Of a DNA stretch of 33,343 bases, positions 7,322 to 32,434 are shown piece by piece. The stretch is from Thermodesulfobacteriota bacterium (GTDB taxonomy: Bacteria > Desulfobacterota > Deferrisomatia > Deferrisomatales > JACRMM01). Position 1 is the first letter of the stretch. Every line of letters begins with the position of its first letter. Where the stretch lies: contig JBFLZB010000002.1 of the NCBI GenBank assembly GCA_040756475.1, forward strand, positions 1 to 33,343, given 5' to 3'. Under the pieces are notes generated by a model. That model was not told where the DNA came from and did no database searches. It saw only the letters and a program-made list of their open reading frames with translations. Both the position numbers and the translations under genes were made by a program.

Positions 7322-8029
7322 ATGCTCGAGCTTCGCGAGATCCAGACCTACTACGGGAACATCCAGGCACTCAAGGGGGTTTCCCTGCGCGTGGAGGAAG
7401 GGGAAATCATCACCCTGATCGGGGCCAACGGAGCGGGCAAGAGCACCACCCTCATGTCGATTTGCGGCATCGCGCCTCCCCGGGGGGGGGAGATCCTCTT
7501 CCGGGGGAAGCCCATCCACGGCCGCACCCCCGACGAGATCGTGGCCCTGGGGATTTCCCAGGTGCCGGAGGGCCGCCGCATCTTCCCCCTCCTCACCGTG
7601 GCGGAGAACCTGGACATGGGGGCCTTCCTGCGGCGCGACAAGGGGGGTATCAAGGAAGACCTGTCCCACGTCTACGAGCTCTTCCCCATCCTGGCCGAGC
7701 GGCGCCACCAGGCAGGGGGCACCCTGAGCGGGGGCGAGCAGCAGATGCTCGCCATCTCGCGGGCGCTCATGGCACGCCCCCGGCTTCTCCTCCTGGACGA
7801 GCCCTCCCTGGGGCTCGCGCCGCTGATCGTCAAGCGCATCTTCGACATCGTGCGGCGGATCAACCGGGAGGGAGGGACGACCATCTTCCTCGTGGAGCAG
7901 AACGCCAACCTGGCCCTCCAGTTGGCCCACCGGGGCTACGTGATGGAGACCGGGCGCATCACCCTGGAGGACCGGGCCGACCGGCTCCTGGCGAACGAAG
8001 ACGTCCGAAGGGCCTACCTGGGCCTGTAA
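7322..8029 (+). CDS. livF: Branched-chain amino acid ABC transporter ATPase LivF
   Basis: A 235-residue ABC ATPase of the LivF family. Walker A GANGAGKST (about 37-45), signature LSGGEQQ, Walker B LLLLDEPSLGLAP, and the family-typical VEQN in place of the H-loop histidine. ITLEDRADRLLANEDVRRAYLGL is the usual LivF end. It would pair with LivG to drive LivHM. It lies ahead of livK rather than at the end of the operon and has its own promoter, so it may be transcribed separately. Confidence 0.95.
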   Translation: MLELREIQTYYGNIQALKGVSLRVEEGEIITLIGANGAGKSTTLMSICGIAPPRGGEILFRGKPIHGRTPDEIVALGISQVPEGRRIFPLLTVAENLDMGAFLRRDKGGIKEDLSHVYELFPILAERRHQAGGTLSGGEQQMLAISRALMARPRLLLLDEPSLGLAPLIVKRIFDIVRRINREGGTTIFLVEQNANLALQLAHRGYVMETGRITLEDRADRLLANEDVRRAYLGL

Positions 8030-8198
8030 CGCCCGTCGCGGAGAGCGGGGGGATTCGCGCGCCGAAACAGGCCCGCCGCCGAGAACCGCAGCCAGCGGGG
8101 GCCCGGGGGTGGAGGGGGGAGACGGGCCCCCGGCGCCCCGCGCGGCCCCCCCCGGGAGCGGGCTGGGAAGCCGGGTCGGCACGCCGGCGGGAACGCGG

Positions 8199-8227
8199 TT
8201 GACGCCTGGAAGCGCTCCTGTTACAAG
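8199..8227 (+). promoter_or_regulatory. livK: Sigma-70-type promoter upstream of livK
   Basis: TTGACG (8199-8204), 17 bases, TACAAG (8222-8227), 80 bases before the livK start. It gives livKHMG its own transcription start. Confidence 0.55.
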
Positions 8228-8306
8228 ACCTCAGGCCCGGGACGGTCCGGGCGCTTGTTTGATGCGCCCAAACTTTTGGGCAGACACACCACGCAAGGAG
8301 GGAAAG

Positions 8307-9437
8307 ATGAACCAGCGGCTTCTCGTTCGTTTGGCCACCGTAGCCGGGGCGGCGCTCTTGGCCTTCTCCGGGGCAGCCTCGGCCCAGGAACCCATCAAGC
8401 TCGGCGTGGCCGGCCCCCACAGCGGCGACCTCGCCTCCTACGGCATCCCGGCCACCCGGGCCGCGAAGTTGGTGGTGGACGAGGTGAATGCCCGGGGCGG
8501 CGTGTTGGGACGCCAGGTGCAACTCCTCGTGGAGGATGAGGAGTGCAAGCCCGAGAAGGCGGCGAACATCGCGGCCAAGTTTGTCTCGAGCGGAGTCCAC
8601 GTGGTCCTGGGGCACATCTGTTCCGGCGCCACCAAGGCCGCCATGGGCACCTACCGCGACGCGAAGGTCATCGCCATGTCTCCCTCGGCCACCAACCCGG
8701 ATCTGACACAGAGCGGCGACTACCCCAACTTCTACCGCACGATCGCCTCGGATGACCTGCAGGCGAAGCTCGGGGTGGACTTCACCCTCGACACCCTCAA
8801 GAAGAAGAAGATCGCCGTCCTCCACGACAAGGGCGACTACGGCAAGGGCTTTGCCGAGTTCGCCAAGAAGTTCGTCGACGAGTCGGGGGGCAAGGGCGAG
8901 GTGGTGCTCTTCGAGGGCATCACCCCCGGTGCCGTGGACTACTCGGCCGTCATCCAGAAGGTCAACCAGCGGGGCGCCGAGGCTCTCATCTACGGCGGGT
9001 ACCACCCCGAGGCCTCGAAGCTCGTCACGGGCATGAAGAAGCGCAAGATGGACATCCCCTTCGTCTCCGACGACGGCGTCAAGGACGACACCTTCATCAA
9101 GGTGGCCAAGGAGTTCGCCGAGGGCGTGTACGCCTCGGGCCCCAAGGACACCTCGAAGTTCCCCCTGTTCAACAAGGCGGTGGAAGACCACAAGAAGGCG
9201 TACGGGGAGGAGCCCGGCGCCTTTTTCAAGGAGGCCTACTCGGCGACCCTCGCCCTCCTGAACGCCATCGAGAAGGCGGGCTCCACCGAGTACGCCGCCG
9301 TGGAGAAAGCCCTGCGCACCGAGTGGGTGGAGACCCCGGTGGGGCGCATCAGCTTCGACGAGCGGGGCGACGCCAAGGGGGTGGGCTTCTCCATGTACCA
9401 GGTGCAGAACGGGACCTACGTCCAGGTCCAGGAGTAG
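8307..9437 (+). CDS. livK: Branched-chain amino acid substrate-binding protein LivK/LivJ
   Basis: A 376-residue periplasmic binding protein. The ATG at 8307 follows AAGGAGGG and starts a clean signal peptide cut at ASA|QEP (about 26). IKLGVAGPHSGDLASYG is the classic start of the mature Leu/Ile/Val-binding fold. C80 and C105 match the conserved disulfide of LivJ/LivK. It delivers ligand to LivHM; leucine, isoleucine, valine or a related amino acid is likely, but ligand choice cannot be read from sequence alone. The following hairpin (9456-9498) should make it more abundant than the permeases. Confidence 0.95.
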   Translation: MNQRLLVRLATVAGAALLAFSGAASAQEPIKLGVAGPHSGDLASYGIPATRAAKLVVDEVNARGGVLGRQVQLLVEDEECKPEKAANIAAKFVSSGVHVVLGHICSGATKAAMGTYRDAKVIAMSPSATNPDLTQSGDYPNFYRTIASDDLQAKLGVDFTLDTLKKKKIAVLHDKGDYGKGFAEFAKKFVDESGGKGEVVLFEGITPGAVDYSAVIQKVNQRGAEALIYGGYHPEASKLVTGMKKRKMDIPFVSDDGVKDDTFIKVAKEFAEGVYASGPKDTSKFPLFNKAVEDHKKAYGEEPGAFFKEAYSATLALLNAIEKAGSTEYAAVEKALRTEWVETPVGRISFDERGDAKGVGFSMYQVQNGTYVQVQE

Positions 9438-9455
9438 GGCACGCAGGTAGCTCCC

Positions 9456-9498
9456 ACGGCGCAGGGGAGGAGCGGGAGCTTCTTCCCTGCGCCGTTTT
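9456..9498 (+). terminator. Hairpin after livK, probable partial terminator
   Basis: An 11-bp perfect stem, ACGGCGCAGGG (9456-9466) with CCCTGCGCCGT (9485-9495), followed by a short T run (9495-9498). It lies between livK and livH, where a leaky terminator or stabilising hairpin commonly raises binding-protein mRNA over permease mRNA. Confidence 0.75.
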
Positions 9499-9582
9499 CA
9501 TGCGAGAGCGCGAGGGTGCCCACGGCCGAGGCCCCCCCTCGAGGCCCGCCTCACCCGACGGCCCCCGGGGTGTGTGACCTCC

Positions 9583-10485
9583 ATGGATTACTTCGTCTAC
9601 CTCTTCATGAGCGGGCTCACCCGGGGCAGCATCTACGCCCTCATCGCCCTGGGCTACACGATGGTGTACGGCATCATCCAGCTCATCAACTTCGCCCACG
9701 GCGAGATCTACATGATCGGGGCGTTCACGGCGCTGGTGGTGGCGAGCGTGCTCACCCTGTACGGCATCCAGGGCCCGGCGGTGCTCGTGCTGGCGGGAGT
9801 GGTGGCGGTCATCTACTCCATGGCCTACGGCTTCACGGTGGAGAAGATCGCCTACAAGCCCCTGCGCCAGGCCCCCCGGCTCTCCCCGCTGATCAGCGCC
9901 ATCGGGATGTCGATCTTCCTCCAGAACTACGTTCTCCTGGCCCAGACCTCGAACTTCCTGCCCTTTCCCGCCCTGGTGCCCGAGTTTGCGTTCCTCGAGC
10001 CGGTGAGCCACCTCATGAGCTCGGCCGAGATCCTCATCGTGGCCACGTCGGCAGCGTGCATGGTGGTCCTCACGCTCCTCATCAAGTACACCCGCATGGG
10101 CAAGGCCATGCGGGCCACGGCCCAGGACAAGTCCATGGCGCTGCTGCTCGGCGTCAACGTCAACCGCGTCATCTCGACGACGTTTGTCATCGGGTCGTCG
10201 CTTGCGGCCATCGGGGGGGTACTGATCGCCTCCCACATTGGCCAGATCAACTTTTTCATCGGCTTCATTGCGGGGATCAAGGCGTTTACCGCCGCCGTGC
10301 TCGGGGGGATCGGCAGCATCCCGGGGGCCGCCCTGGGGGGGCTGGTGCTCGGCCTCACGGAGAGCTTCGCCACCGGGTACGTCTCGAGCGACTACGAGGA
10401 CGTGTTCGCGTTCGCCCTCCTGGTGCTGATCCTCATCTTCCGGCCCGCCGGCATCCTGGGGCGGGCCACGACCCAGAAGGTATAG
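9583..10485 (+). CDS. livH: Branched-chain amino acid ABC permease LivH
   Basis: A 300-residue multi-pass membrane protein of the LivH family, about eight membrane helices. Characteristic motifs: GSIYALIALGYTMVYGIIQLINFAHG near the N-terminus, RMGKAMRATAQDKSMALLLGVN for the ATPase-coupling loop, and AAVLGGIGSIPGAALGGLVLGLTE. The start is either ATG 9583 (used here, MDYFVYLF) or GTG 9574; the ribosome site is poor for both. It partners LivM. Confidence 0.94.
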   Translation: MDYFVYLFMSGLTRGSIYALIALGYTMVYGIIQLINFAHGEIYMIGAFTALVVASVLTLYGIQGPAVLVLAGVVAVIYSMAYGFTVEKIAYKPLRQAPRLSPLISAIGMSIFLQNYVLLAQTSNFLPFPALVPEFAFLEPVSHLMSSAEILIVATSAACMVVLTLLIKYTRMGKAMRATAQDKSMALLLGVNVNRVISTTFVIGSSLAAIGGVLIASHIGQINFFIGFIAGIKAFTAAVLGGIGSIPGAALGGLVLGLTESFATGYVSSDYEDVFAFALLVLILIFRPAGILGRATTQKV

Positions 10486-10533
10486 CCCGGGGTCCGCCTC
10501 GCCGGCTCCCCCGTGACTCGAGCGAAAGCCGCC

Positions 10534-11760
10534 ATGAACGGTCTCAAGCAATCCCTGCTCGTCTCCCTCTGGATGGTGTTCCTCACCTTTCCCCTCTTGG
10601 TGATCCGGGTGAATACCATCGAAGAGGTCGTGGAGTGGCGGTGGCACAACATGCTCTGGATCGCGGTGAGCACGTTCGTGCTCTCCTTTGTTTGGCGCCG
10701 CCTCCTCGAGCGCAAGGAGCGCGGCGGAAAGGCGCGGCAGGGCCGCGATGCGGGCGGGCGTGTGCCCCTCTCCCAGCGCCTCCTCGAAGAGCGCCGCATC
10801 TTCGTCCCCGCCCTGGTCCTCCTGGGGGTCGTTGCCCTCCTGGTGCCGCACCTCTTCTCCACCTTCCAGGTCCGCATCCTCATCACGGCCCTGATCTACG
10901 TGGTGCTGGGGCTCGGGCTCAATATCGTGGTGGGGCTCGCCGGGCTACTCGACCTGGGGTACGTGGCCTTCTACGCCGTGGGGGCTTACTCCTACGCCCT
11001 CTTGCACGCCAACTTCCAGATCGGGTTCTGGACTGCCCTGCCCCTGGGCATGCTCCTGGCGGCGCTCTTCGGCGTCCTCCTCGGCATCCCGGTGCTGCGC
11101 CTGCGGGGAGACTACCTGGCCATCGTGACCCTGGGCTTTGGGGAGATCATCCGACTCGTCCTCGAGAACTGGGGGACGTTTTCCCGCGGCCCGAGCGGCA
11201 TCGCCAACATCCCCAAACCCGGGTTCTTCGGCATCCCCCTGACCCTGCAGCAGTCTACTGTCTACATCTACTACCTGATGATCGCCCTGGTGCTCTTCAC
11301 GATCTTCGTCGTCAACCGCCTCCAGAACTCGCGCCTGGGGCGCTCGTGGCTCGCGCTCCGGGAAGACGAGATCGCCTGCGAGGCCATGGGCATTCCACGC
11401 ATGCGCACCAAGCTCGCGGCGTTTGCACTGGGGGCCACGTGGGCCGGCCTGGGCGGGGTGATCTTCGCGGCCAATACCGGCTTCATCAACCCGGCGAGCT
11501 TCACCCTGTGGGAGTCGATCATCATCTTGTCCATCGTGGTCTTCGGGGGGATGGGGTCGATCACGGGGGTGGTCCTCGCGGCCTTCATCCTCACCCTGCT
11601 CCCCTACTACCTTGCCGAGTTCATGCAGTATCGGATGCTGCTCTTCGGGGCGACCATGGTTCTCATGATGGTCTTCCGGCCCCAGGGGCTCATCAGCAAG
11701 GTGCGGCGGCGCTACGAGTATCACAGCGCCGGTGCTCCCGCCGCGCGGAGCGAGAACTGA
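10534..11760 (+). CDS. livM: Branched-chain amino acid ABC permease LivM
   Basis: A 408-residue permease. The conserved LivM core starts near residue 95 (ALIYVVLGLGLNIVVGLAGLLDLGYVAFYAVGAYSYAL) and includes GDYLAIVTLGFGEIIRL and the coupling loop RLGRSWLALREDEIACEAMGI. The N-terminal extension with two extra hydrophobic segments (about 8-30 and 42-57) occurs in full-length LivM proteins. Start ATG 10534 is used; GTG 10513 is possible. The stop lies 1 base before livG. Confidence 0.94.
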   Translation: MNGLKQSLLVSLWMVFLTFPLLVIRVNTIEEVVEWRWHNMLWIAVSTFVLSFVWRRLLERKERGGKARQGRDAGGRVPLSQRLLEERRIFVPALVLLGVVALLVPHLFSTFQVRILITALIYVVLGLGLNIVVGLAGLLDLGYVAFYAVGAYSYALLHANFQIGFWTALPLGMLLAALFGVLLGIPVLRLRGDYLAIVTLGFGEIIRLVLENWGTFSRGPSGIANIPKPGFFGIPLTLQQSTVYIYYLMIALVLFTIFVVNRLQNSRLGRSWLALREDEIACEAMGIPRMRTKLAAFALGATWAGLGGVIFAANTGFINPASFTLWESIIILSIVVFGGMGSITGVVLAAFILTLLPYYLAEFMQYRMLLFGATMVLMMVFRPQGLISKVRRRYEYHSAGAPAARSEN

Positions 11761-11761
11761 C

Positions 11762-12550
11762 ATGGACCGGCTTCTCGACGTGCGCAAACTCGGGATGAAC
11801 TTCGGGGGGCTGCGGGCACTCGACGCGGTGGACCTGGACGTGGGCCCGGGGGAGATCGTGGCCCTCATCGGCCCCAACGGGGCGGGGAAGACCACGTTTT
11901 TCAACTGCATCACCGGGATCTACACCCCCACCGGCGGCGACGTCTTTCTCCAGCTTCCGGGCCGGAGCCGGGCGCGGCTCAACGGACTCAAGCCCCACCG
12001 CGTCACTGCCCAGGGCATGGCCCGCACCTTCCAGAACATCCGCCTGTTCCCCAACATGACCGCCCTGGAAAACGTGATGGTGGGCCGCCACTGCCGTACC
12101 GGCTCGGGCATCCTGGGGGCGATCTTCCGAGGGCCGGCCACCCGGGCGGAGGAGCGCGCCGTGGTGTCCCGGAGCTACGAGCTCCTGGAGCGGATGGGTC
12201 TGGAGGCCTACGTAAACGAGCAGGCCAAAAACCTCCCCTATGGGGCCCAGCGCCGCCTGGAGATCGCCCGGGCGCTCGCCACCGACCCCTGCCTCCTGCT
12301 CCTCGACGAGCCCGCGGCGGGGATGAATCCCCAGGAGACGGCGGAGCTCGACGAGCTCATCACCCGCATCCGGGACGAGGCGGGGATCGCCATCCTCCTC
12401 ATCGAACACGACATGAAGCTCGTCATGAGCCTCTCGGACCGGATCTTCGTGATGGAGTACGGGCGCAAGATCGCCGAGGGCACCCCCGAGGAGATCCGGT
12501 ACAATCCGGCGGTGATCAAGGCGTATCTGGGGGAGGAGGCCGTGGGCTGA
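11762..12550 (+). CDS. livG: Branched-chain amino acid ABC transporter ATPase LivG
   Basis: A 262-residue ABC ATPase of the LivG family: Walker A GPNGAGKTT, the LivG-specific signature LPYGAQRRLEIARALA, Walker B LLLLDEPAAGMNPQET, and H-loop IEHDMKLVM. GMARTFQNIRLFPNMTALENVMVGRH is typical of LivG. One base separates it from livM, so they are co-translated. It is the last gene of the transporter operon. Confidence 0.95.
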   Translation: MDRLLDVRKLGMNFGGLRALDAVDLDVGPGEIVALIGPNGAGKTTFFNCITGIYTPTGGDVFLQLPGRSRARLNGLKPHRVTAQGMARTFQNIRLFPNMTALENVMVGRHCRTGSGILGAIFRGPATRAEERAVVSRSYELLERMGLEAYVNEQAKNLPYGAQRRLEIARALATDPCLLLLDEPAAGMNPQETAELDELITRIRDEAGIAILLIEHDMKLVMSLSDRIFVMEYGRKIAEGTPEEIRYNPAVIKAYLGEEAVG

Positions 12551-12600: not shown

Positions 12601-12642
12601 AAGAGTCGCCGGCGGGCGCCGTGCCGGAGGAGAGGAGAACTC

Positions 12643-14715
12643 ATGGGCAAAGGGTTTCTGGTGGCGGCGCTGGCCGCGGCGATATTCCTGGGGCAACCGG
12701 CGGGGGCGCAGCTCGATGCCACGGTGCCGAGCGATACCTATCGGACGATCCAGGAGGGAATCGACGCCGCCGCCGGGGAGATCGACGGGGGCACCATCAC
12801 CGTGCGTACGGGCACCTACGGCGATGCGCTCACCCTGCGGGCCGGCGTCACCGTGCGGGGGGAAGAGACCGCCAGCACGATCCTCACGGGGGCTATCACT
12901 TCCCAGGGCGGAGGGACTCTCCAGCGCTTCACGGTGCGGGGGAACGGCGCGAGCTTTTCCAACGCACCCAATCTGGACCTCAGCAACAACGTCTTCCACT
13001 CCGTCTCCGGCGCCGCCCTCCAGGTGCGAAACTCCGCCAACGTGGCGATCGCGAACAACACCTTCTACGGCAACGGCACCGGGCTCACCCTCACCGGGAG
13101 CACCGGCTCGGTGCGGGCGAACCTCTTCGCCAACAACGCGGTGGCCGTGAGTTGGGACAACGCGGGGGCTTCCTTCCAGCAGAACTTCTTCGACCTACGT
13201 GCCCAGGACGTGACGGAGGAGACCACCGCCGACCGCGATCCGCTCCTGGTCGCCCCGGAGGCGGGGGACTTCCACCTGCGGGCGGGCTCCCCCTGCATCG
13301 CCGCCGCGTCCAACCCCGACGGCAGCGACGCCGATCAGGGGGCCTACGGGGGAACCGGAGCGGACACGCGCCCCTTTCCCGTGTCCGGACTCGATGCGGA
13401 GGTGGATGCAACGGGAACCGCCGCGACCCTCACCTGGCAGCCCAACCTCGCGTACGACGTCACGGGCTACCGCGTTCACTACGGTCCCGACGAGAACTTC
13501 GGAGGCACCGGCGCCGACCAGGGGGCCTCGCCCATCACCGTAGGGCTGGTGGCCGGGCTCGCCCTGACCGGACTCGACGTGGCCGCCGAGGCGCCCGGGG
13601 CCGTGGGGGGCCTGGAGGCCTTTCCCCGGAATCGGGCCGTGCTGCTGCGCTGGGACCCCGCGCCGGGGGCCACGGGATATCGGGTGCTCTGGGGCACGGC
13701 GACGGGCGCCCTGGACGAAGCTTCGGACGTGGGAAACGTGACCTCCCACACGGTTACGGGGCTCGCCAACGGCACGGAATACCGCTTTGCCGTGCGATCC
13801 CTCGGGGGCACCACCCACAACTTCGCCGTGGCGGCGCTGGCTACCGCCCGGGAGAGCGTGCGCTCCGCCGGCGTGGCTGTGCCGGTGACCGAGCTGGAGG
13901 GCGACCTCTCGGCCGAGGTCCTGCAAATCCCGGAGGAGGCGGTGGGCTTTCCCGAACTGGACGATCGCGGCGGCTGCTTTCTCCGCAGCGCCGCCGGACC
14001 GCCGCGGGGAGGCGCCGTCTTCGCGGGCGCCTGTCTTCTTGCCGTGTTCGGCCTCCTGTCAACCTGGCGGGCCAGGGCGGTGCTGTCGGTTCTCGTGCTT
14101 GTCGGGGTGGCCCTCGGGGGCGGCGAGGCGCGGGCCGACGGGCTCCAGTGGACGGCCAGCGCCAAAGGGGGCGTCTGGTTTCCGGCGGAGAGCGGGTGGG
14201 ACGACCACTACGACAGCGCGATCGCGGCCGACTGGCGGCTGGCCTTCGGACTTCGCCTCCTTTCCCGTTTCGAGGTGGGGCTGGAAGGTGGCTACCGGAA
14301 GACCGAGGGAGAGGTGGACACCAACCGCCGGGGCGACCCCCTGGGGCGTACCCTCGAGCAGACCCTCACCGTCTTCCCCGTGCAGGCCTATGTGGTCTAC
14401 GACCTCCGGGGCGCCCCCGATGCCCTGGTGGTGCCCTACGTGGGGGCCGGGTACAGCCGCTACTACTACCGCCACGAGGTGGAAGAGGCCTCGACCGTGC
14501 GCGGCCGGCAGCACGGCTACCACGTCCGCGGCGGCGTCAAGGTGCTCCTGAATCCCTTCGACCCCGCGGCCGCCCGCCGGTCTGCAGGGGGCATGGGTCC
14601 TGCACGCACTTACGCGTGCCTCGAAGGGCAGTATGCCCGGGTGGACGACTTCGGCTCGGCCGACGCCGACCTGGGGGGCTGGAGCCTCCTCGCCGGAGCG
14701 GCTCTGTACTGGTAG
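12643..14715 (+). CDS. Beta-helix/FN3 secreted protein fused to an outer-membrane barrel
   Basis: A 690-residue protein; the ATG follows GGAGGAGAGG. Signal peptide 1-22 (PAGA|QL). Residues about 30-215 are a right-handed parallel beta-helix (NNTFYGNGTGLTL, ANLFANNAV). Residues about 245-405 are two fibronectin-type-III-like domains, the second containing ATGYRVLWGTATG and LANGTEYRFAVRS. Residues 443-478 look like a C-terminal sorting tail: GGCF, a hydrophobic helix (456-473), then a basic end WRARA. At once a second signal-peptide-like segment begins (V480 to ARA|DG, about 498), followed by a roughly 190-residue beta-barrel that ends in LAGAALYW. An in-frame GTG at 14080 could start the barrel separately, but no stop separates the parts. 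Beta-helix plus FN3 suggests a surface adhesin or glycan-binding protein (inference). Confidence 0.82.
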   Translation: MGKGFLVAALAAAIFLGQPAGAQLDATVPSDTYRTIQEGIDAAAGEIDGGTITVRTGTYGDALTLRAGVTVRGEETASTILTGAITSQGGGTLQRFTVRGNGASFSNAPNLDLSNNVFHSVSGAALQVRNSANVAIANNTFYGNGTGLTLTGSTGSVRANLFANNAVAVSWDNAGASFQQNFFDLRAQDVTEETTADRDPLLVAPEAGDFHLRAGSPCIAAASNPDGSDADQGAYGGTGADTRPFPVSGLDAEVDATGTAATLTWQPNLAYDVTGYRVHYGPDENFGGTGADQGASPITVGLVAGLALTGLDVAAEAPGAVGGLEAFPRNRAVLLRWDPAPGATGYRVLWGTATGALDEASDVGNVTSHTVTGLANGTEYRFAVRSLGGTTHNFAVAALATARESVRSAGVAVPVTELEGDLSAEVLQIPEEAVGFPELDDRGGCFLRSAAGPPRGGAVFAGACLLAVFGLLSTWRARAVLSVLVLVGVALGGGEARADGLQWTASAKGGVWFPAESGWDDHYDSAIAADWRLAFGLRLLSRFEVGLEGGYRKTEGEVDTNRRGDPLGRTLEQTLTVFPVQAYVVYDLRGAPDALVVPYVGAGYSRYYYRHEVEEASTVRGRQHGYHVRGGVKVLLNPFDPAAARRSAGGMGPARTYACLEGQYARVDDFGSADADLGGWSLLAGAALYW

Positions 14716-15126: not shown

Positions 15127-17613
15127 CTACCAGCGCTCGGAGCCGTGGCAGCCCTGGGTCGAGCAACTCCGGGTTGCCGGGTTGTAGGAAGTCACCCGGG
15201 TATCGGCGCCACCGATCGTCGTCGGGGCAACCCCCTCGCGTCCCGGGGTGTCGAGGCCGGCGAAGTGCACGTCGGCCAGGCGCGCCGTGCTGTGGCACAC
15301 CGTGCAGTCGTATCCCCGGCGGCTCACGTGGAGGGTGTGGCGCCCCGAAAAGTAGCCGTTGTCTTCCCCGGTGCCTGCCTCGTGGCACGACCGGCACTGT
15401 ACGTCCACCGCGATGGTCCCCGTCCACCACTCGGGGGTGGTCTGGCCCCCGTGGCAGCTCAGGTTGGAGCAGGTGCCGTCCAGGTTGTCCGCGGCCTGCC
15501 CGCGCCCGGCGTCGAGGGTCGCCGGAAAGGCCAGGTCCACGGAACCGTCGTGGGTTGCCCCCAGGTGGCACACGCCGCAGTCGGAGCCCACGGTGGGCAG
15601 GGCCGCGTGGGCGGCGTGGGCCCCTGCGGTGTTGGGGAACGCGTTGCCCGAAGGCGGCATGCCGTGACAGGCGGTGCAGCTTCCAACGGGCGGCGGATCG
15701 GTCGGAACGGTCGGTTCCGTCGGGTCACTGGGATCGGTTGGGCCGGCGAGCTGGTTGAGCCACGCGGCCAGGGCCTGCTCCTCGGCGCTGGAGAGCAGGG
15801 TGCCCATGTGCCCGGCCTGGAGCTTCGGGGCTACCAACGCCCCGGCGCCGGCCAGGTCGGGGGCGAAGCCGGTGGGGTCTTCCGAGCCGGCCGTATGGCA
15901 GCTCGCGCAGTCCGCCAGGTACACGGCGTAGCCGTCCGCGGGGCCAGACGGATCAGTCGGATCGGTCGGATTCGTCGGATCGGTCGGGCCGGCGAGCTGG
16001 TTGAGCCAGGCCGCCAGGGCCTCCAGCTCGGCCCCGGAGAGCGCGGCGCCCATGTGCCCGGCCTGGAGCTTCGGGGCCACGAGCGCCCCTGCGCCGGCCA
16101 GGTCGGGGGCGAAACCGGTGGGGTCTTCCGGGCCTGCCACATGGCAGCTCGCGCAGCCTGCCAGGTACAGGGTAAGGCCGTCGGCGGGGCCAGTCGGATC
16201 GGTCGGGTCGGGCGCTCCGGGAAGGGCGGAGGCCAGGGCGTCCAACTCGGCGTCGGTCAGGACGATGCCCCCCATGCCCCCCGCGTCGGCGCCGATGGCG
16301 GCGCGAATCTGGGCGGCGGTGCGGCCGGGCACGTCGGTCCCGGCGAGGGGGCCGTGGCACCCCGCGCATTCCGCAGCGTAGAGGGCAGTGCCGTCCGGGG
16401 GGGCGGTCGGGTCCGTGGGCGGGGGCACGGCCTGGGACACCGTGTCGAGCCACGCCGCCAGGGAGGTGAGCTCGGCGGCGGACACGGTAGCGCCCATGTG
16501 ACCTGCCTGGAGCTTGGGGGCAACCAGGGCCCCGGAACCGGCCAGATCGGGGGCGAACCCCGCCGGGTCGCCATCCCCCGCCTTGTGGCACGAAGAACAG
16601 CTGGCATCGTACACGGCCTGGCCGTCCGGCTGGGCCGGCGGAGGATCTTCGGGAGTCTCAGGGGGCGTCTCTGGGGCCGGGTCGGAGGGCGGGCTGCCCG
16701 GGTCTTCGGGGTCCAGGCCGGTACGGGCCTGGTAGACGCTCCGGGCCATGGGCCCGGCGCCCCCCAGCACGGCGTGGACGGCCTCGTCCATCGCCTCGCG
16801 GGTGGCAGGGTCGCCGGTGTGGTCGCGAAGGCGTGCCACGAGCTCCCGCTGGAGGCGGGCGGCCACGTGGATGGCGTCGCCGAGGGTGAAGGGGTGCTCG
16901 GGCTGGGCTCCGGCCTCTGCGGCCAGCTCCGCCCGAAGCTGGGGATGGAGGGTGGTCTGCACGGCGTGGACGAACTCTTCGAGGAGCCGGGCCACGTCCG
17001 GCTCGGCCAGGGCGTCGGGCCCCAGGCCAAAGTCGCCGGCCAGGGTCATGAGGGCCATGGCGGCCATGTTGGCCTGGAGGGGCCGCAGTGCGGCCTCACT
17101 CACCTCGCCGGCTTCTTCGGCGAGCCCCGCCATGGGGTCCGCCAGCAGATCCGAAGCCGTCAGCCCCGGGAGGCCGGCCGCGCGGAGCGCCTCCAGGAGG
17201 TCGTCGGGCTCGATCCCGTTGGACAGGAGGGTGGTGAGGGGCGAGACCACGACGGACTCCCCGTCGTCCGGCCCCACGGATCGCTTGAGCAGGCCGCCGA
17301 AGGGGGCCCCCGCGTGGGTCCCCCGGGCTCCCGCCTTCATCTCCACCCGGGAACCCTCCCGAAGCGGGGAGGGAAACTGGAAGCGGCCCAGGTCGTCCGA
17401 AGGACTCGACTCCCGCTGGACCAGGGTGCCGTCGGCGGCCACTTCCTGGAACACGGCTCCTTCGATATAGGGGTCCACCGCCACGCCGGAGCGGGTGGAC
17501 GTGAGGACCGGGTCGCCGGAGCTGTCGCCGCTGCAGCCGACAAGGGCGGCTGCGGCGGGCAGGAGAAGCAAGAGGAGGGGAACGAACGATCGGGTGATGG
17601 GCTTTCGGAGCAT
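15127..17613 (-). CDS. Ten-haem c-type cytochrome lipoprotein
   Basis: An 828-residue lipoprotein; ATG 17613 follows GGGAGGA, and the lipobox LVGC puts the lipid on C27. Residues about 30-290 carry no haem (a strand-rich domain starting SGVAVDPYIEGAVF, then helices). Eight CXXCH motifs (CSSCH, CAGCH, CASCH twice, CTACH, CGVCH, CRSCH, CTVCH) and two CX4CH motifs (CSNLSCH, CSTQGCH) give ten probable haem sites. The first four sit in monohaem cytochrome-c-like modules with distal HMG, joined by Thr/Asp/Pro linkers. The last six form a C-terminal domain of the Geobacter CX4CH/CXXCH type. The likely role is electron transfer at the outer surface, for example to metal oxides. It has its own sigma-54-type promoter and terminator, so it is probably monocistronic. 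Confidence 0.93.
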   Translation of the reverse strand: MLRKPITRSFVPLLLLLLPAAAALVGCSGDSSGDPVLTSTRSGVAVDPYIEGAVFQEVAADGTLVQRESSPSDDLGRFQFPSPLREGSRVEMKAGARGTHAGAPFGGLLKRSVGPDDGESVVVSPLTTLLSNGIEPDDLLEALRAAGLPGLTASDLLADPMAGLAEEAGEVSEAALRPLQANMAAMALMTLAGDFGLGPDALAEPDVARLLEEFVHAVQTTLHPQLRAELAAEAGAQPEHPFTLGDAIHVAARLQRELVARLRDHTGDPATREAMDEAVHAVLGGAGPMARSVYQARTGLDPEDPGSPPSDPAPETPPETPEDPPPAQPDGQAVYDASCSSCHKAGDGDPAGFAPDLAGSGALVAPKLQAGHMGATVSAAELTSLAAWLDTVSQAVPPPTDPTAPPDGTALYAAECAGCHGPLAGTDVPGRTAAQIRAAIGADAGGMGGIVLTDAELDALASALPGAPDPTDPTGPADGLTLYLAGCASCHVAGPEDPTGFAPDLAGAGALVAPKLQAGHMGAALSGAELEALAAWLNQLAGPTDPTNPTDPTDPSGPADGYAVYLADCASCHTAGSEDPTGFAPDLAGAGALVAPKLQAGHMGTLLSSAEEQALAAWLNQLAGPTDPSDPTEPTVPTDPPPVGSCTACHGMPPSGNAFPNTAGAHAAHAALPTVGSDCGVCHLGATHDGSVDLAFPATLDAGRGQAADNLDGTCSNLSCHGGQTTPEWWTGTIAVDVQCRSCHEAGTGEDNGYFSGRHTLHVSRRGYDCTVCHSTARLADVHFAGLDTPGREGVAPTTIGGADTRVTSYNPATRSCSTQGCHGSERW
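15803..16129 (-). repeat. In-frame duplicated haem modules
   Basis: About 80 bases at 15803-15883 and 16049-16129 are nearly identical (246-base spacing, 82 codons); a more diverged third copy is at 16493-16572. Each encodes APDLAGxGALVAPKLQAGHMG of a cytochrome module. The linker between modules (about 15948-15990) is itself a 6-base GGATCG/GTCGGA-type repeat encoding TDP units. Confidence 0.85.
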
Positions 17614-17719
17614 GGGTCCTCCCTGGAGGGACGAGGGGGTTCGGGCCACGGGATCCGGGCGGCCCGGCGGGGCCCGAGTCCGCCGAGTCGCATGGGTGGG
17701 TACCTGGACGAAAAGCTTT

Positions 17720-23575: not shown

Positions 23576-23629
23576 GGACGGGATAACGGGATCGACCTTT
23601 CCCCATCCCGTTCATCCCGTTATCCCGTC
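23576..23629. repeat. Inverted 9-mer repeat pair, hdrCB/CBS-ACT junction
   Basis: GACGGGATAACGGGAT (23578-23593) is perfectly complementary to 23614-23629. The right arm overlaps the end of hdrCB and contains its TAA stop (23620-23622). Confidence 0.9.
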
Positions 23630-25038
23630 TGCAAGAAGCCCTTCTCCCCGAGCAGGGGCCGCGGGTCCACGAGCTTGCGCCCGAGACCTGCCGCCTTCTG
23701 CCCCAGGCCGAAGGCGAGCGCCATGAGTTGGGTGACATAGAGTACCGGGGTCTGGCGCGCCAGCGTCGGCATCTGGCGCTGGCGGTTGTCGAGGTTCGAG
23801 TCGCAAAGCGGGCACGCCACGACGAGGACGTCGGCGCCGGCGGCCTGGGCGTGCTCCACGATGTTCTGGCTTAGCCGCAGCATCACCTCCTTGGCCGGCA
23901 CCGCGAGGCTGCCGCCGCAGCAGACGGTCTTGTCGTCCCAGTCCAGGGTCTCGGCCCCCAGGGCCCGGCAGACCTCGTCGAGCTCGGTGGGGTACTCGGG
24001 ATGGGGGTGACCGGTGACCTCGGGCGGCCGGGTGAGGAGGCACCCGTAGTAGCAGACCACCCTGAGCCCCTGGAGGGGCCGGACCACCCTGGCCCGGATC
24101 GCCTCGGTTCGGACGGTGCCCGCGAGCCAGTCCGCGATGGACCGGATCGCCACCTCGCCTCGGTACCGGTAACCGAGGTCTGCGTCCACCCGAGCCCGGA
24201 GCACCGGGTCCCGGCGAACCTCGTGGTCGGCGGCCTTGAACCGGTTGTAGCAGGCGGCGCAGGGGGCCACCACCTCGCCAAACCCGCTCGCCTCCACCAG
24301 GGAGAGGTTGGCCAGGGGCGCCTTGACCCCGAGATAGGGATCCACGTGGTGGGCCGGGCTCGCCCCGCAGCAGGTCCAGCCGTTGGGCTCCACGAGCCGG
24401 TACCCCAGAGCGTCGGCGCACGCTCGAAAGGAGGTGTCGAACTCCTTGGCCAGGGAGTGGAGCGAGCACCCCGGGTAGTAGCCCACCTGGTTCGGCTCGG
24501 GGTTGCGGTGCTTCTGGCGGTCGGGCCGCGAGCGGGCAAGGGAGGGGAGAAAGCTGATCTTTGACCGCTTGAGCATCTCCACGCCCAGGTCCGCGTCCTC
24601 GAACCACTTTCCTGACAGCAGGTTCATGGCCCCCATGAGCCCGAGCTCGTACAGCCGCCCGAAGAGCCGGGCGTCCTTCAAGAAGATCTTGTGGAAGAGG
24701 GCCACCTCGGGCACCGCGGGCGCGATGCCCCGATCGTGGGCCACCTGGGTCAGGGTCTCCATGACGAGGGCGATGTCGAGCCCCTGGGGGCAGCGGGTGG
24801 TGCAGGTCTGGCACGAAGCGCACAGCCAGGGCGTGCGGGCCCTGAGGACCGCCTCCTCGTCGCCGATCTGCACGAGCCGCATGACCTGGTTCGGGGTGTA
24901 GTCGTAGTAGTCGGTCACCGGGCAGCCGCTCGTGCAGCGCACGCACTGGTAGCACAGAAAGGCGTTCTGCCCCGTGCGGGCCTCGATCTCCCTGGCGAGG
25001 TCGGGCTTGAGTGCGGTGGTGGTCGCTGCTGGCTCCAT
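23620..25038 (-). CDS. hdrCB: HdrC-HdrB fusion, copy 2
   Basis: A 472-residue heterodisulfide-reductase-type fusion. The N-terminal HdrC part has two 4Fe-4S motifs (C29, C32, C35, C39 and C73, C76, C79, C83). The HdrB part has two CCG domains (C191 with C223-C224, C260, C263; C329/C333 with C373-C374, C409, C412), the ligands of the noncubane 4Fe-4S clusters that act on disulfides. It carries electrons from HdrA to a substrate-reducing site; in Met-linked complexes the acceptor is not settled. The last residues LQTG and the stop are read from an intergenic repeat. It is a paralogue of 30972-32345. Confidence 0.93.
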   Translation of the reverse strand: MEPAATTTALKPDLAREIEARTGQNAFLCYQCVRCTSGCPVTDYYDYTPNQVMRLVQIGDEEAVLRARTPWLCASCQTCTTRCPQGLDIALVMETLTQVAHDRGIAPAVPEVALFHKIFLKDARLFGRLYELGLMGAMNLLSGKWFEDADLGVEMLKRSKISFLPSLARSRPDRQKHRNPEPNQVGYYPGCSLHSLAKEFDTSFRACADALGYRLVEPNGWTCCGASPAHHVDPYLGVKAPLANLSLVEASGFGEVVAPCAACYNRFKAADHEVRRDPVLRARVDADLGYRYRGEVAIRSIADWLAGTVRTEAIRARVVRPLQGLRVVCYYGCLLTRPPEVTGHPHPEYPTELDEVCRALGAETLDWDDKTVCCGGSLAVPAKEVMLRLSQNIVEHAQAAGADVLVVACPLCDSNLDNRQRQMPTLARQTPVLYVTQLMALAFGLGQKAAGLGRKLVDPRPLLGEKGFLQTG

Positions 25039-25056
25039 GGGAAGATCCTATTCTGG

Positions 25057-25169
25057 GACAGGATGACAGGATGGACAGGATGGAATTTTGGTGGAGCTGA
25101 ACCTGCGAGCCGCCGGTCTGCCTGTAGCCGTTCCCCTCAGCCCCATCCTGATCATCCTGTGATCCTGTC
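25057..25169. repeat. Inverted 9-mer repeat pair, metF/hdrCB junction
   Basis: Arms 25057-25083 and 25143-25169 are complementary at 24 of 27 positions and are built of ACAGGATGG-like units. The right arm contains the metF stop (25152-25154) and encodes its last residues, FDRITG. Confidence 0.9.
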
Positions 25170-26162
25170 AAAACCCCCCGCACCTCGAACCGCCGGCCGA
25201 GGCAGGAGCCCGGCGCCTTCCACGATGGGGCGCACGGCCTCTTCCCACTCGATGGCCATGACGTGGACGCCGGCCACGCCTTCGATCTCCCGGAGCTCCT
25301 GGATGAGCTCGACGCACATCCGGATGCCCTCGGCCTTCCAGGCTGTCTGGCGCGCTTCCTTCTCCTCGGGGGGGATCCCCCCGGCGGCGCCTTCGATCCG
25401 CTCGATGACGTGGTCGGGCACGGTGATGCCGGGGACGAAGTCGCGCATGTACTTGGCCATGGCCGGGCCTTTGAGGGGCCCCACCCCCACGAGGATCGCG
25501 AGCTTCTCGTGGACCCGGAGCCGGCGCACCTCCTCCATGAACCGCTTGAAGGCCGGCACGTTGTAGACGAGCTGGGTCTGGATGAAGTCGGCCCCTGCGG
25601 CGGCCTTCTTCGCCAGTCGCTGGGGCCGCCACTCCACCGGGTGGGCCTCGGGGGCCGCCGCGGCGCCGATGAAGAACCGGGGCTCGGCTCCCTTCACGAG
25701 GTCGCCGCACTGGAACCGCTTCTCGTCCCGGAGGTCCTTGAGCATCTGGAGCTGCTGCACGGAGTCCAGGTCGTGGACGTTCTTCGCGGTGGGGTGGTTG
25801 CCGAAGGACTGGTGGTCCCCGGTGAGGGCCAGGAGATTTCGGATGCCGAGCGCGTAGGCGGAGAGGTAGTCGGCCTGCATGGCCAGGCGGTTCCGGTCGC
25901 GGCAGGTCATCTGCATGACCGGCTCCAGGCCCTCCTGCACCGCGACGATCGACGCCCCCAGGCTCGACATGCGCACCACGGCGGTCTGGTTGTCGGTGAC
26001 GTTCACCGCGTCCACCACCCCCTTGAGGTGGCCCGCCTTCACCCGGATGTGGTGGGCGTCGGCGCTCTGGGGCGGCCCCAGCTCGCCGGTCACCGCAAAG
26101 TGCCCCGCGGAGAGGACCTTCTCCAGATTGCTGCCCGACTTGTAGCCGTTGGCGTTCGTCAT
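25152..26162 (-). CDS. metF: Methylene-tetrahydrofolate reductase MetF, copy 2
   Basis: A 336-residue TIM-barrel flavoprotein of the MetF family: VTGELGPP at the start, VTDNQTAVVRMSS, QMTCRDRNRLAMQADYL, LALTGDHQ, FIQTQLVYN, PLKGPAMAKYM. It reduces methylene-H4F to methyl-H4F in the methyl branch of the Wood-Ljungdahl pathway, or runs in reverse. MTNANG at 26162 is used as the start; the ribosome site is weak. It has no C-terminal MetV part; that is the separate next gene upstream. It is a clear paralogue of the partial gene at the window end and shares the C-terminal IEWEEAVRPIVEGAGLLPRP. Confidence 0.93.
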   Translation of the reverse strand: MTNANGYKSGSNLEKVLSAGHFAVTGELGPPQSADAHHIRVKAGHLKGVVDAVNVTDNQTAVVRMSSLGASIVAVQEGLEPVMQMTCRDRNRLAMQADYLSAYALGIRNLLALTGDHQSFGNHPTAKNVHDLDSVQQLQMLKDLRDEKRFQCGDLVKGAEPRFFIGAAAAPEAHPVEWRPQRLAKKAAAGADFIQTQLVYNVPAFKRFMEEVRRLRVHEKLAILVGVGPLKGPAMAKYMRDFVPGITVPDHVIERIEGAAGGIPPEEKEARQTAWKAEGIRMCVELIQELREIEGVAGVHVMAIEWEEAVRPIVEGAGLLPRPAVRGAGGFDRITG

Positions 26163-26190
26163 CTCAGCACCATGCAAGGACACCGGTGTT

Positions 26191-26314
26191 GGACAGGATG
26201 ACAGGATCAACAGGATAGAGCCGGATTCTTGTTGGAAATGTCGGTGCGGAGTCTTGTCGCATAGCAGCGAGTCGAAGAGGTTCTATCATCCTGTCCATCC
26301 TGTTCATCCTGTCC
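26191..26314. repeat. Inverted 9-mer repeat pair, metV/metF junction
   Basis: Arms 26191-26216 and 26285-26314 (ACAGGATGA-type units and their complement) pair over about 26 bases with one indel and few mismatches. They fill most of the 168-base gap. The right arm starts 16 bases beyond the metV stop. Confidence 0.88.
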
Positions 26315-26330
26315 AAGGGCTTATCCCTTC

Positions 26331-27080
26331 CTATCCCTCGTCCAGGAGGAGGAGGTCTTCCCGGACGATGCGGCGGGGGCCGCCGTCGCGGGAGGTGGAC
26401 CAGTCCTTGGGGCCCTGGACGCCCGTGATGAGGTCCAGGCGACCGAGGCGTTTGAGCCGCTCGTGGATCAGGTGCCAGGCGCACTCCACATCCTCGGTGA
26501 CCGGCACCTGCCGGCCGCGGGCGTCGGTCTTCATCACGGGGACGCCGTTTTCGCGTTTGACCCGCTTGACTTCGCACAGGCCGTTTTCCGAGCCTCCGCA
26601 GGGGCCGTTCTGCACCTGCTTGGAGCACCGGGCGATGGGGCAGATGCCGCCGGTCTGGCCGAGCATGCAGTTGCCGCAGGCCTGGCACTGCTCGGTCCAG
26701 ATGCCCTGCTCCTCGGGCAGGCCCAGGAACGTGGTGTTCAGGCCGGGCACCACCCAGGCGTCGGGAAAGTGCCGGACCATGGCCTGGACCCCGATGCCGC
26801 AGGCGAGCGACACCACGGCGTCGGCCCTCCGCACGTGCTCGGCGATGCCGTCCAGGTACTCCCACTCGCACTGGCGCTGGGCCGTGACATCGGTCACCCG
26901 GCGAGTGGCCCCGTCGAGCCGGGAGGCCATGCGAAGGGCCGACGCCAGGAGTTGGGCTTCCTTCTCGCCCCCCGCCAGGCACACGGTGACGCAGGTGCCG
27001 CACCCGGCCACGAGCACCTCCCGCGCGTCCCCCAGAAACCCCACAATCTCCGAAAGTGGCTTTTGCTCGCCGACGATCAT
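26331..27080 (-). CDS. metV: MetV, cysteine-rich partner of MetF
   Basis: A 249-residue protein of the MTHFR C-terminal-domain (MetV) family; the ATG follows GAGGTGATTCC. Cysteines: C27, C30, C34 near the N-terminus (VAGCGTCVTVCLAGG), C71, C94, then a dense group C132, C135, C138, C147, C152, C161, C169 (QCQACGNCML...CPIARCSK...GPCGG), consistent with more than one Fe-S and/or zinc site. In Moorella thermoacetica MetV links MetF to HdrABC-MvhD. Only one copy is seen in this window, against two metF genes. Confidence 0.9.
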   Translation of the reverse strand: MIVGEQKPLSEIVGFLGDAREVLVAGCGTCVTVCLAGGEKEAQLLASALRMASRLDGATRRVTDVTAQRQCEWEYLDGIAEHVRRADAVVSLACGIGVQAMVRHFPDAWVVPGLNTTFLGLPEEQGIWTEQCQACGNCMLGQTGGICPIARCSKQVQNGPCGGSENGLCEVKRVKRENGVPVMKTDARGRQVPVTEDVECAWHLIHERLKRLGRLDLITGVQGPKDWSTSRDGGPRRIVREDLLLLDEG

Positions 27081-27103
27081 GGAATCACCTCGACGTGGGA
27101 GTT

Positions 27104-27253
27104 GGACGGGATAACGGGATATACGGGATGAAACCTGCCGAACTCTTGGTGAGACGTGGTCAGCCGGCCGGCTACACCGCGACACCCCGCGTAGGCACCC
27201 CGGCGTACGCGGCCGCCGTTGCTCCACATCCGGTTCATCCCGTTATCCCGTCC
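27104..27253. repeat. Inverted 9-mer repeat pair, mvhD/metV junction
   Basis: Arms 27104-27130 and 27227-27253 (ACGGGATAA-type units) are complementary at 24 of 27 positions around a 96-base interior. The right arm contains the mvhD stop (27235-27237) and encodes its tail LDGITG. Confidence 0.9.
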
Positions 27254-27720
27254 AAACCCCGTCCGCTCCGCAATGGGCTGGGCCCCAGCCGGCGGATGCG
27301 CTCGGTCATCTCCCGGGCGGCGGCGGCGAAGCTCTCGCCCATGCCCCCGGAGAGGAAGAAGATGCCCAGGCGCTCGCCCTCGAGCCCCACCTGCTCCAGG
27401 AGCTTGCGGGTGCGCTCCACCCGGGCCCGGGCCCTCTCGTTGCCCCGCACGTGATGGCAGTTGCCGATGGGGCAGGCGATCACGTAGACGCCGTCGGCCC
27501 CCTCTTCGAAGGCGGCCAGGAGGTAGCGGGCGTCGGCCTTCCCCGTGCAGGGCAGCTTCACCACCTTCACGGTGGCCGGGTACTGGAGCCGCAGCGCACC
27601 TGCCGTGTCGCCCGACATGTAGGCGCAGTAGCTGCACGTGAAGGCAGTGAGCTCCGGCTGAAAGCCGGGGCTCGTTGCGGGTGGCACGTGGCCCGTCGAG
27701 ATTTGCCGGTCGGCTGTCAT
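27235..27720 (-). CDS. mvhD: MvhD/FlpD-type electron-transfer subunit
   Basis: A 161-residue protein of the methyl-viologen-reducing hydrogenase delta (MvhD/FlpD) family. Cysteines C29 and C32 (FTCSYCAY), C58 (LPCTGK), C83 and C88 (ACPIGNCHH) suit its 2Fe-2S cluster. It passes electrons between an external donor (hydrogenase, formate dehydrogenase or NADH module) and HdrA. No hydrogenase or dehydrogenase subunit is seen in the window, so the donor is unknown. The start overlaps the hdrA stop by 4 bases. The last codons come from an intergenic repeat. Confidence 0.93.
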   Translation of the reverse strand: MTADRQISTGHVPPATSPGFQPELTAFTCSYCAYMSGDTAGALRLQYPATVKVVKLPCTGKADARYLLAAFEEGADGVYVIACPIGNCHHVRGNERARARVERTRKLLEQVGLEGERLGIFFLSGGMGESFAAAAREMTERIRRLGPSPLRSGRGLDGITG

Positions 27721-30700
27721 GGCGCGGTCGCTCCCGCCCTGGACGACTCGGCGAACTCGGAGTCCCACTGACCGAGAGCGCCTGTCATCACCTGGTCGTC
27801 GCGGTAGTGGGCGAGCTGGATGGCTACAGCGGGGCACTCGCCGGTGCAGGAGCCGCAGCCCTGGCACAGGGCGGGGTCGATCCAGGCGTGGCCCCCGAGG
27901 TTGCCCACCCCCGCCTGGTCATACGCCATGCGGGGGATGTGGAAGGGGCAGGTGCGTACGCAGGTGAGGCACCCCACGCACCGGTCCGGGTCCACCGCCG
28001 CCACGACCCCCCCCACGTAGAAGGGGTCGAGGCTCAGGACCGTGAGCGCCCGCCCGGCGGCTGCCTGGGCGCTGGAGATGGCCTCCTCCAGGAACCGGGG
28101 GTAGTGGGCCATGCCGCACAGGAAGAGGCCCTCGGCCAGGAAGTCCATGGGGCGCATCTTGAGGTCCGCCTCCAGGAAGAACCCCTCCTGGGAAAGCGGG
28201 AGCTGGAGGAGCCGGGCCAGCGCCCCCGTGCCCTCGGCGGGCACGATGGACATGCTCAGCGCCAGGAGCTCGGGCTCCAGAATGTAGCGGCGGTTGAGGC
28301 TCGGGTCGGTCACCTCCAGGCGCAGGGCGGCGCCGAGCGGGGTCACCCGGGGCAGATCCTCGTCGGTGTACCGCACGAACACGACCCCTCGGCGGCGCGC
28401 CTCGGTGTAGTACTGCTCCCGGAAGCCGTAGGTGATGATGTCTTTGTAGAGCACCGTGACCTGGCAGTCTGGGTTGAGCATCTTGACCCGGATGGCGTTC
28501 TTCATGGTGTTGGTGCAGCAGGTGCGCGAGCAGTAGAAGCTCTCGGCCTCCGCGGGCTTCACGCACTGGATCATGGCGACGCTTTGCATCCCCGCCACCC
28601 GCTCGGGCTGGTGGACGATCCAGTCCTCGAGTTCGAGCTGGGTCACCACCCGAGGGTCTTCCCCGTGGAGGAAGGCCTCCGGCGTCCCCTCCCGGCCGCC
28701 CGTGGCCACCACCGTGACCCCGTGCTCCACCTCGAAGGTGCCCCCCTCGGCCCCCGGGTCGGCGGTGCGGATGCGGCTCTGGAACCGGCCGATGGAGCCG
28801 CTCCAGGCGGCCAGCTCGCTGCGGGTGAGGACCCGGATGCGGTGGTGGCCCCGCACCCGATTGACCAGGTCGCGCAGGAGCCGCTGGGGGTTGAGGCCTT
28901 CGGCCAGGTAGTAGATGTGGCGCAGGTTTCCCCCCAGGGCCTCGCCCCGCTCCACCAGGGTCACGTCGTGGCCGCTGTCGGCGATGGCCAGGGCCGCCGT
29001 CATGCCGGCCACCCCGCCCCCCAGGACGAGCGCGCTGCGGAAGGGCTGGATGGGGACGCGCCGCACGGGCTCCAGGCGGGCCGCTCGCAGCGCCCCCAGC
29101 CGCACGAGCTCCGAGGCCTTGCGGGTGGCCGCCTCGGGCTCCCGGTCGTGGACCCAGGCGCAGTGTTCCCGCAGGTTCACCATCTCCAGGAGGTAGGGAT
29201 TGAGGCCCGCCTGGCGCACCGCCCGCTGGAAGAGGGCCTCGTGGGTGCGGGGGCTGCACGCCGCAACCACCGCCCGGTTGAGGCCGTGGGCCGCGATGTC
29301 GGCCCGGATTGCCTCGAGCCCCTCGGGGAAGCACGCAAGCTCCACCCGGGCGGCGTGGACCACCCCGGGCAGGCCTGCCGCCCGATCCCGGATCGCGTCG
29401 AGGTCCAGGGACTGGGACACCACCGGGCCGCACGCGCACAGGAAGACCCCGGTGCGCGCCGGCTCCTCCGCCGTGTCCCGCTCCGGCGGGGCGGCATCGA
29501 CGCGCCCCAGGAAGGGGTACTCCCGGGGGGCCGGCAGGCCGCCCAGGGCGTCGTGGAAGACCCGCATCACCTCGGCGGCGGCGCCGGCGGCGTCGAAGAC
29601 CGTCTCGGCGATCTCCTTGGGGGACTGGAAGGCGCCGGCCACGTATACCCCGGGCTGGCTCGTCTGGAGGGGATGGAACTTGTCGGTGGCGCAAAAGCCG
29701 TGGGGGTTGAGCTCGACCCCCATCATCCGGGCGAGCTCCGCCGCTCCGGCCGGGGGCTCCAGGCCCACGGCCAGTACCACCATCCCGTAGCGCTCTTCCC
29801 GGGGCTTGCCGTCGGGCCCCGGGAAGCGCAGGAGGAGGTCCCGGGTGGCCGGGTCCTCCCGGATGGCGCTCACCCGACACCGGGTGTAGCGCACCCCGTG
29901 GGTCTCCATGGCCCGGCGGTGGTACTTGGTGTACTCCTTGTTGAAGGCCCGCTCGTCCATCACGAAGACCTGGCAGTCCACGCCGCCCAGGCGCTGCTTG
30001 GCGAGCACGGCCTGCTTGGTGGCGATCATGCAGCAGATGGAGGAGCAGTAGGGGTGCTCCTGGTCCCGGGAGCCGATGCACTGGAGCCACGCCACGCGCC
30101 CGGGGCGCACCCCGTCGGAGAGGCGGGCCACCATGCCCTCGGTGGGGCCCGACCGGCTCGCCAGGCGCTCGAACTGCATGGTGGTGACCACGTTGGGATA
30201 GCGCCCGTAGCCGAACTCCTCCAGGGAGGCCGGGTCGAAGAGGCGGTGGCCCAGGGCCAGGATCGTCGCCCCCACCCGGATCGTCTCGGTGCGCGGCTCC
30301 TCCTCCAGGTCCACGGCCCGCGTCGGGCAGATGGCCGCGCACTTGCCGCACCCCTCGCACCAGGGCCCCTTCTCGATGACGTAGGCGTCGGGGATGGCCC
30401 GGGGGGCGGTCTTGTAGGCGGCCCTGCGGTTGGACATGCCGAGCTGGAACTCGCTGGGGAGCGTCGCCGGACACACCACGGCGCACAGCCGGCAGTTGAT
30501 GCAGCGCGCGGGGTCCACGTGCCGCGGGCTGCGGCGCAGGGTGACGGTGAAGTCCCCCACCTGACCCTGGAAGTCCACCACCTCGGTGAGGGTGCGCAGC
30601 CGGATGTTGGGGTGGAGGTTGTGGTCCTGGAAGGCCGGGGAGATGGAGGGCCGGGTGCACCCGTACCCGTGGTCCGACGAGCCCCGGCAGAGCACGCAGT

Positions 30701-30884: not shown

Positions 30885-30887
30885 TGA

Positions 30888-30968
30888 CGCTGCTCGTTGC
30901 TCGTTGCGCGTTGTCCGTTGTCCGTCGTCCGTGGAAGTCCGTGTCGGTCCGTGCCCGTCCGTGCGCTC
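30888..30968. repeat. Heptamer repeat, hdrCB/hdrA junction
   Basis: Units GTTGCTC, GTTGCGC, GTTGTCC and then GTCCGTG-like units fill nearly the whole 87-base gap. Confidence 0.85.
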
Positions 30969-30971
30969 CCC

Positions 30972-32345: not shown

Positions 32346-32355
32346 GGGTAACCCT

Positions 32356-32434
32356 TTGCGTGTTGCGCGTTGCGCGTTGCTCGTTGGGCCCCCCGTCCGT
32401 GGTCCGTGCCTTACGCTCTGTGCCCTGCGCCCTC
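32356..32434. repeat. Heptamer repeat, metF/hdrCB junction
   Basis: GCGTTGC units, then GTCCGTG and CTGTGCCCTGCGCCC units. The repeat runs into metF: it contains the stop (32411-32413) and encodes the tail GAGHRA. Confidence 0.85.

Follow-up and report, generated by a model that had tools for sequence, protein, structure and literature searches.

The fused reading frame and its parts

The window, a stretch of 33,343 nucleotides from the draft genome of a Thermodesulfobacteriota bacterium, carries a reading frame (Table 1) in which a signal peptide, a beta-helix, a fibronectin type III (FnIII) part, a GGCF motif, a transmembrane helix, an arginine-containing loop, a signal-peptide-like helix ending in ARA and a barrel follow one another. 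In translation, residues 443-478 read GGCFLRSAAGPPRGG-AVFAGACLLAVFGLLSTW-RAR, with GGCF at 443-446, and residues 480-498 read VLSVLVLVGVALGGGEARA, in which the second hydrophobic helix (480-491) passes into GGGEARA|DG and the barrel (499-690) begins directly afterward. The first-pass annotation had described one frame running across a sorting-type tail and a second signal-peptide boundary, and this description holds, since the 690 residues are uninterrupted by a stop and the coordinates are correct. The GC content at third codon positions (GC3) is 0.88 in the passenger, 0.84 at the junction and 0.88 in the barrel, staying high across the join, as in coding DNA. Taken alone, an open join of 56 codons in GC-rich DNA proves little. 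The fused gene is present in one copy in the window's own genome.

A branched-chain amino acid ABC transporter set (ATPase, binding protein, two permeases, ATPase) occupies 7322-12550 and ends 92 bases ahead of the fused gene. On the minus strand, 15127-17649 encodes an 840-residue protein with repeated CxxCH haem-type motifs and, further along, 23620-33307 holds MetF-like and CCG-domain (HdrB-like) iron-sulfur genes twice, flanking a 1055-residue HdrA-like protein, all named by eye. The context of the fused gene is not conserved, because the neighbors of its homologues in two related genomes (G001 and G002) differ.

Table 1. Features of the fused frame; coordinates are those of the window
Feature	Position	Strand	Basis
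Whole reading frame, fused passenger and barrel, 690 aa and stop	12643..14715	+	Translation; homologues
Shine-Dalgarno-like stretch GGAGGAGAGGAGA ahead of ATG 12643	12626..12638	+	Sequence
Signal peptide 1 (residues 1-22), probable cut PAGA|Q	12643..12708	+	Sequence; inferred
Parallel beta-helix (NosD-like) passenger domain	12790..13350 (limits approximate)	+	Pfam PF13229 E 1.3e-8, PF05048 E 1e-7
FnIII domain, the better of two stretches	13633..13809	+	Pfam PF00041 E 6.3e-12
GGCFL core, CFI-box-like sorting motif, internal	13969..13983	+	Sequence; GGCFV / GFCFL in homologues
Transmembrane helix 1 (stop-transfer), residues 458-475	14014..14067	+	Hydropathy 2.36 over 16 aa
RARA loop (residues 476-479), basic, cytoplasmic by prediction	14068..14079	+	Sequence; pattern of charges in the fused genes
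SP2, the internal signal peptide (residues 480-498), with EARA|DG as predicted signal peptidase I site	14080..14136	+	Hydropathy 3.07 over 12 aa; spacing to barrel
8-stranded outer-membrane beta-barrel, MXAN_2562-like, residues 499-690	14137..14712	+	NF040596; AlphaFold; NspA Z 19.4

The C-terminal part belongs near the MXAN_2562 family of NCBIfam (NF040596), which matched residues 519-688 with 68.7 bits (E 5.3e-19); this lies below the curated cut-off of 100 bits, which is passed by the homologues of G041 (146 bits) and G036 (124 bits). An AlphaFold model of residues 499-690 has eight strands at a pLDDT of 84, with the first strand beginning at residue 4 after the predicted cut, and takes the fold of a small single-domain outer-membrane barrel. 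Its nearest structures are NspA (Z 19.4), the OprF barrel (Z 18.3) and OmpA (Z 17-19), along with OmpW. Folding of the whole chain without an alignment gave no usable model (pLDDT 35).

Residues 443-478 had been likened to a C-terminal sorting signal. The GGCF core, the helix and the basic end are all there, and the core is of the GGCF[IVL] type with its invariant cysteine (GGCFL at 443-447). It is shared with the CFI-box-CTERM (NF041770) and CFI-box putative sorting motif (NF041763) models of NCBIfam; unlike those, the motif of the window is internal, with 243 residues behind it, and lacks the CFI-box domain of about 60 residues, and neither the protein nor the junction matched either model at E 10. 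A full CFI-box is found in fused homologues, in the G041 protein with 88.6 bits and in G077 by genome search, and in both frames it is followed by several hydrophobic helices.

Split and fused relatives

Two further genera of the window's order have homologues that match over the full length, at 45% (residues 4-687) and 36% (residues 8-686) identity, and both share the junction with its two helices and its AxA-type end. A further 31 genomes have a sorting motif and a barrel in one frame, including G041 and G077 at 47-50% GC, which brings the other genomes with this layout to 33 in all. A whole-protein scan of the named genomes returned no match, and a barrel profile built from six relatives found nine loci.

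The search with the barrel model covered 395 genomes of the window's phylum and found the barrel in 12. A GCF-tailed protein is fused to it in frame in five of these (the window's genome, G000, together with G001, G002, G041 and G077) and lies directly upstream in the other seven, where the upstream protein ends in a GCF tail or a CFI-box and the gap measures 2 to 44 bases in six genomes and 204 in one. In Bdellovibrionota, assigned through the phylum of G396, which includes the Bdellovibrionales genome G395, the barrel is present in 142/369 genomes. Among the 90 of these 142 barrels that were classified (the 30 best and another 60 from lower in the list), 29 are fused, 43 have a separate and adjacent tagged gene, 16 have none within reach and two are cut by contig ends, so that a CFI-box-type protein is fused or adjacent in 72/88 readable cases. 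The 43 separate tagged genes end near the point where the barrel gene begins and often overlap its frame. Thus, separate versions of the two parts do exist, as adjacent genes in 7/12 genomes of the window's phylum and at 43/90 classified barrels of Bdellovibrionota, and the join sits, as had been suggested from the sequence of the window, where two genes meet. The near-constant pairing suggests a joint function for the CFI-box-tagged protein and the small barrel.

The gene truA, for tRNA pseudouridine synthase, lies 3' of the barrel in many Bdellovibrionota and in G041, which points to one ancestral locus. The two-gene state appears to be the ancestral one, because the split form has the wider spread. 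A single origin of the fused form agrees poorly with the trees: on a quick tree of 84 barrels, fused and split forms switch 13 times, with no fewer than eight of these switches forced by well-supported branches, and a careful tree of 15 barrels weakly rejects a single clade of the fused forms of the window's phylum (AU p 0.046). Single splits after fusion are likely too, as for G584, which stands within a fused group.

One chain, probably matured into two proteins

At the junction, the segment behind the stop-transfer helix has a basic n-region, an h-region and an AxA-type site, the makeup of an internal signal peptide. In the fused genes of the window's phylum (n=5), the last helix ends in such a site 22-31 residues ahead of the first invariant residue of the barrel, and the true signal peptides of the split homologues end 26-35 residues ahead of it. 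Because a strict AxA pattern overlooked genuine sites, ARA among them, the counts use another one. A signal-peptidase-like site follows the last helix at 26/28 fused junctions with readable helices as against 9/27 for the previous helix (Fisher p 4e-6), the pattern being loose enough that these 9/27 controls match as well, and a start codon with a Shine-Dalgarno-like motif stands ahead of the barrel signal peptide in 28/38 split and 2/23 fused genes (p 7e-7), both p-values being overstated because related sequences are not independent. The ribosome-binding sites are therefore nearly gone in the fused genes, which argues that these are read as one chain. The mean net charge at the 28 fused junctions is -1.0 after the last helix and +3.3 after the previous one, a contrast that has the pattern expected of a hairpin with a cytoplasmic loop.

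These features point to an old fusion of neighboring, co-operating genes whose product would be one polyprotein, matured by signal peptidase I into the passenger and a free barrel, a reading to which we give a probability of roughly two in three (0.68). We infer the cut itself, the sorting of the passenger and the cooperation of the two products from sequence comparison and structure prediction, and events could proceed as follows. The first signal peptide would start Sec export of the beta-helix/FnIII passenger, the helix after GGCF would halt transfer and the arginine loop would remain in the cytoplasm, after which the internal signal peptide would restart export and signal peptidase I would cut behind EARA. 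The freed barrel would go to the outer membrane via BAM, and the passenger would be left on a helical membrane hairpin with its GGCF still usable by a sorting or lipidation step toward the surface, where it would probably work with the barrel.

It is rather unlikely that the barrel is instead made, additionally or exclusively, by initiation within the frame, for instance at GTG 14080, the upstream read-through being incidental. The first-pass annotation had offered this codon as the start of the barrel; it does exist, as codon 480, and many fused genes have in-frame start codons close to the second signal peptide; those of G041 (TTG, MKKALIIV...) and G001 (TTG, MRRLAAL...) would yield textbook signal peptides. 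In addition, 11/23 Bdellovibrionota fusions have an in-frame ATG within 22 codons, well placed for a separate signal peptide, and internal starts may therefore add output in some species. Nevertheless, no start is conserved among the homologues, GTG 14080 included, and a chain begun there would leave behind the arginine residues of the n-region. By eye, the GTG codons in and just before SP2 of the window have no Shine-Dalgarno-like motif, and the near loss of such motifs from fused genes also speaks against a separate start. Internal starts are therefore not general, and may operate in single species.

A single uncut protein, in which the barrel would anchor the beta-helix/FnIII part to the cell surface, with the helices as a linker, is very unlikely. 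One frame in the order passenger-barrel resembles an autotransporter, and the self-anchored surface protein had been put forward for that frame before. However, the eight predicted strands, nearest to NspA, OmpA and OmpW, do not make the 12-stranded C-terminal translocator of a type V autotransporter, a pair of strongly hydrophobic helices joined by a basic loop would remain in the inner membrane, and the residues of the cleavage site are kept at fused junctions. An uncut chain over both membranes is ruled against because the approximately three residues between the helix end, at the predicted cut, and the first barrel strand cannot span the periplasm. Full-length homologues of the same layout are indeed common, but the internal segment is not an ordinary linker helix. 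Six related fused genes (the G701 group) show no clear hydrophobic helix at their junctions, from which the helices have mostly disappeared; a genuinely single protein would fit there, and the polyprotein model therefore does not cover every fusion.

A sequencing or assembly error, or a fresh form, confined to one genome, of the stop loss that the first reading had offered as one option, retains hardly any probability and is refuted by the homologues: the window does come from a fragmented draft of 369 contigs, but GC3 is continuous over the join and the layout recurs in two other genera and 31 further genomes, so that the join is due neither to chance nor to base calling and the fused form is an old one that recurs. 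A recurrent polyprotein arrangement explains the frame better than a lost stop codon.

Beyond this locus, the polyprotein reading could extend, at odds that we would place only a little above even, to a class of natural bacterial polyproteins. In these, a tagged surface protein and a barrel would have been fused repeatedly, with at least eight changes between fused and split in at least two phyla; the internal signal peptide would mostly be kept and the ribosome-binding site dropped, signal peptidase I would release the partners 1:1, and the CFI-box would act as an internal sorting signal. To our knowledge, there are few documented cases of bacterial polyproteins that are secreted and cut at an internal signal peptide. 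Dozens of relatives with the same parts, separate or fused, are natural controls that make the question of one or two proteins directly testable, and the pairing with a small barrel is a lead on what the CFI-box does.

Comparable systems and other sorting tails

The FbcH cytochrome b/c1 polyprotein of Bradyrhizobium japonicum is also one gene giving two proteins, split at an internal signal peptide; it differs from the gene of the window in belonging to a respiratory complex and in having neither a sorting tag nor an outer-membrane barrel. The same combination as in the window, an FnIII-type tagged protein and this family of barrel, is found in MXAN_2561 (NF045522, MYXO-CTERM-anchored) and MXAN_2562 (NF040596), which we take to be adjacent genes from their consecutive locus tags. 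The upstream FnIII parts match NF045522 with a best E of 2.6e-14. The Myxococcus pair consists of two genes with a MYXO-CTERM tail, whereas the window has one frame, a GGCF tail and a beta-helix passenger.

TraA and TraB of Myxococcus xanthus are likewise a tagged surface protein and an outer-membrane barrel partner, encoded by overlapping genes (PMC11980579); they are unfused, and differ further in their passenger and in a barrel with an OmpA-type domain. The closest published case by analogy appears to be MXAN_5598 of M. xanthus, in which an internal MYXO-CTERM is followed by an outer-membrane barrel and an OmpA domain, and which was considered a possible fusion, with processing at the tag proposed for its N-terminal part (PMC11980579). 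Like the gene of the window, it places a sorting tag in mid-frame, between a preceding surface domain and a following outer-membrane barrel; unlike that gene, it combines a MYXO-CTERM tag with a large adhesin passenger and a barrel with an OmpA cell-wall domain. It is a single case, and the main text of that paper contains no survey of split and fused relatives. In the model for M. xanthus, the MYXO-CTERM cysteine is proposed to be lipidated, myxosortase cuts the tail and the type II secretion system brings the protein to the surface (PMC11980579).

The MYXO-CTERM model had no match in the protein of the window, and myxosortase (NF040593) had none at E 1e-3 in G000, G001 and G002. The window's genome has two general CPBP proteases, and relatives of myxosortase occur in four CFI-box genomes (G041, G077, G094 and G022). 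A weak CFI-box-like match near a CPBP protease on contig 103 of the window's genome was rejected, as it falls inside an unrelated frame. Our literature search found no paper on the CFI-box, the MXAN_2561/2562 pair, Bd0486 or the fusions, and no described enzyme for the CFI-box, which stands as a putative sorting motif.

GGCF tails of other kinds are also present in these genomes. Many surface-type proteins of G000, G001 and G002 end 6-16 residues past a poly-Gly-GGCF[LV] stretch with no transmembrane helix behind it, one of them ending in ...GGGGGCFLSALGK. Examples are L068, L069, L075, L102, L107 and L111, several with choice-of-anchor U domains; some proteins of this kind match NF041763, only below its cut-off, and G002 has about a dozen of them. 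In G001, L088 and L090 have GGCF tails with a hydrophobic helix, L088 also with an arginine cluster, and two forms of the tag therefore coexist in that genome, helix-bearing tails beside helix-less short ones. On contig 14 of G001, the frame L132 (1735-6618) encodes about 1600 residues in which two propeller-like halves are joined by poly-Gly-GGCFLLACGG, a hydrophobic helix and APVRA, and it is possibly another fusion across the sorting motif.
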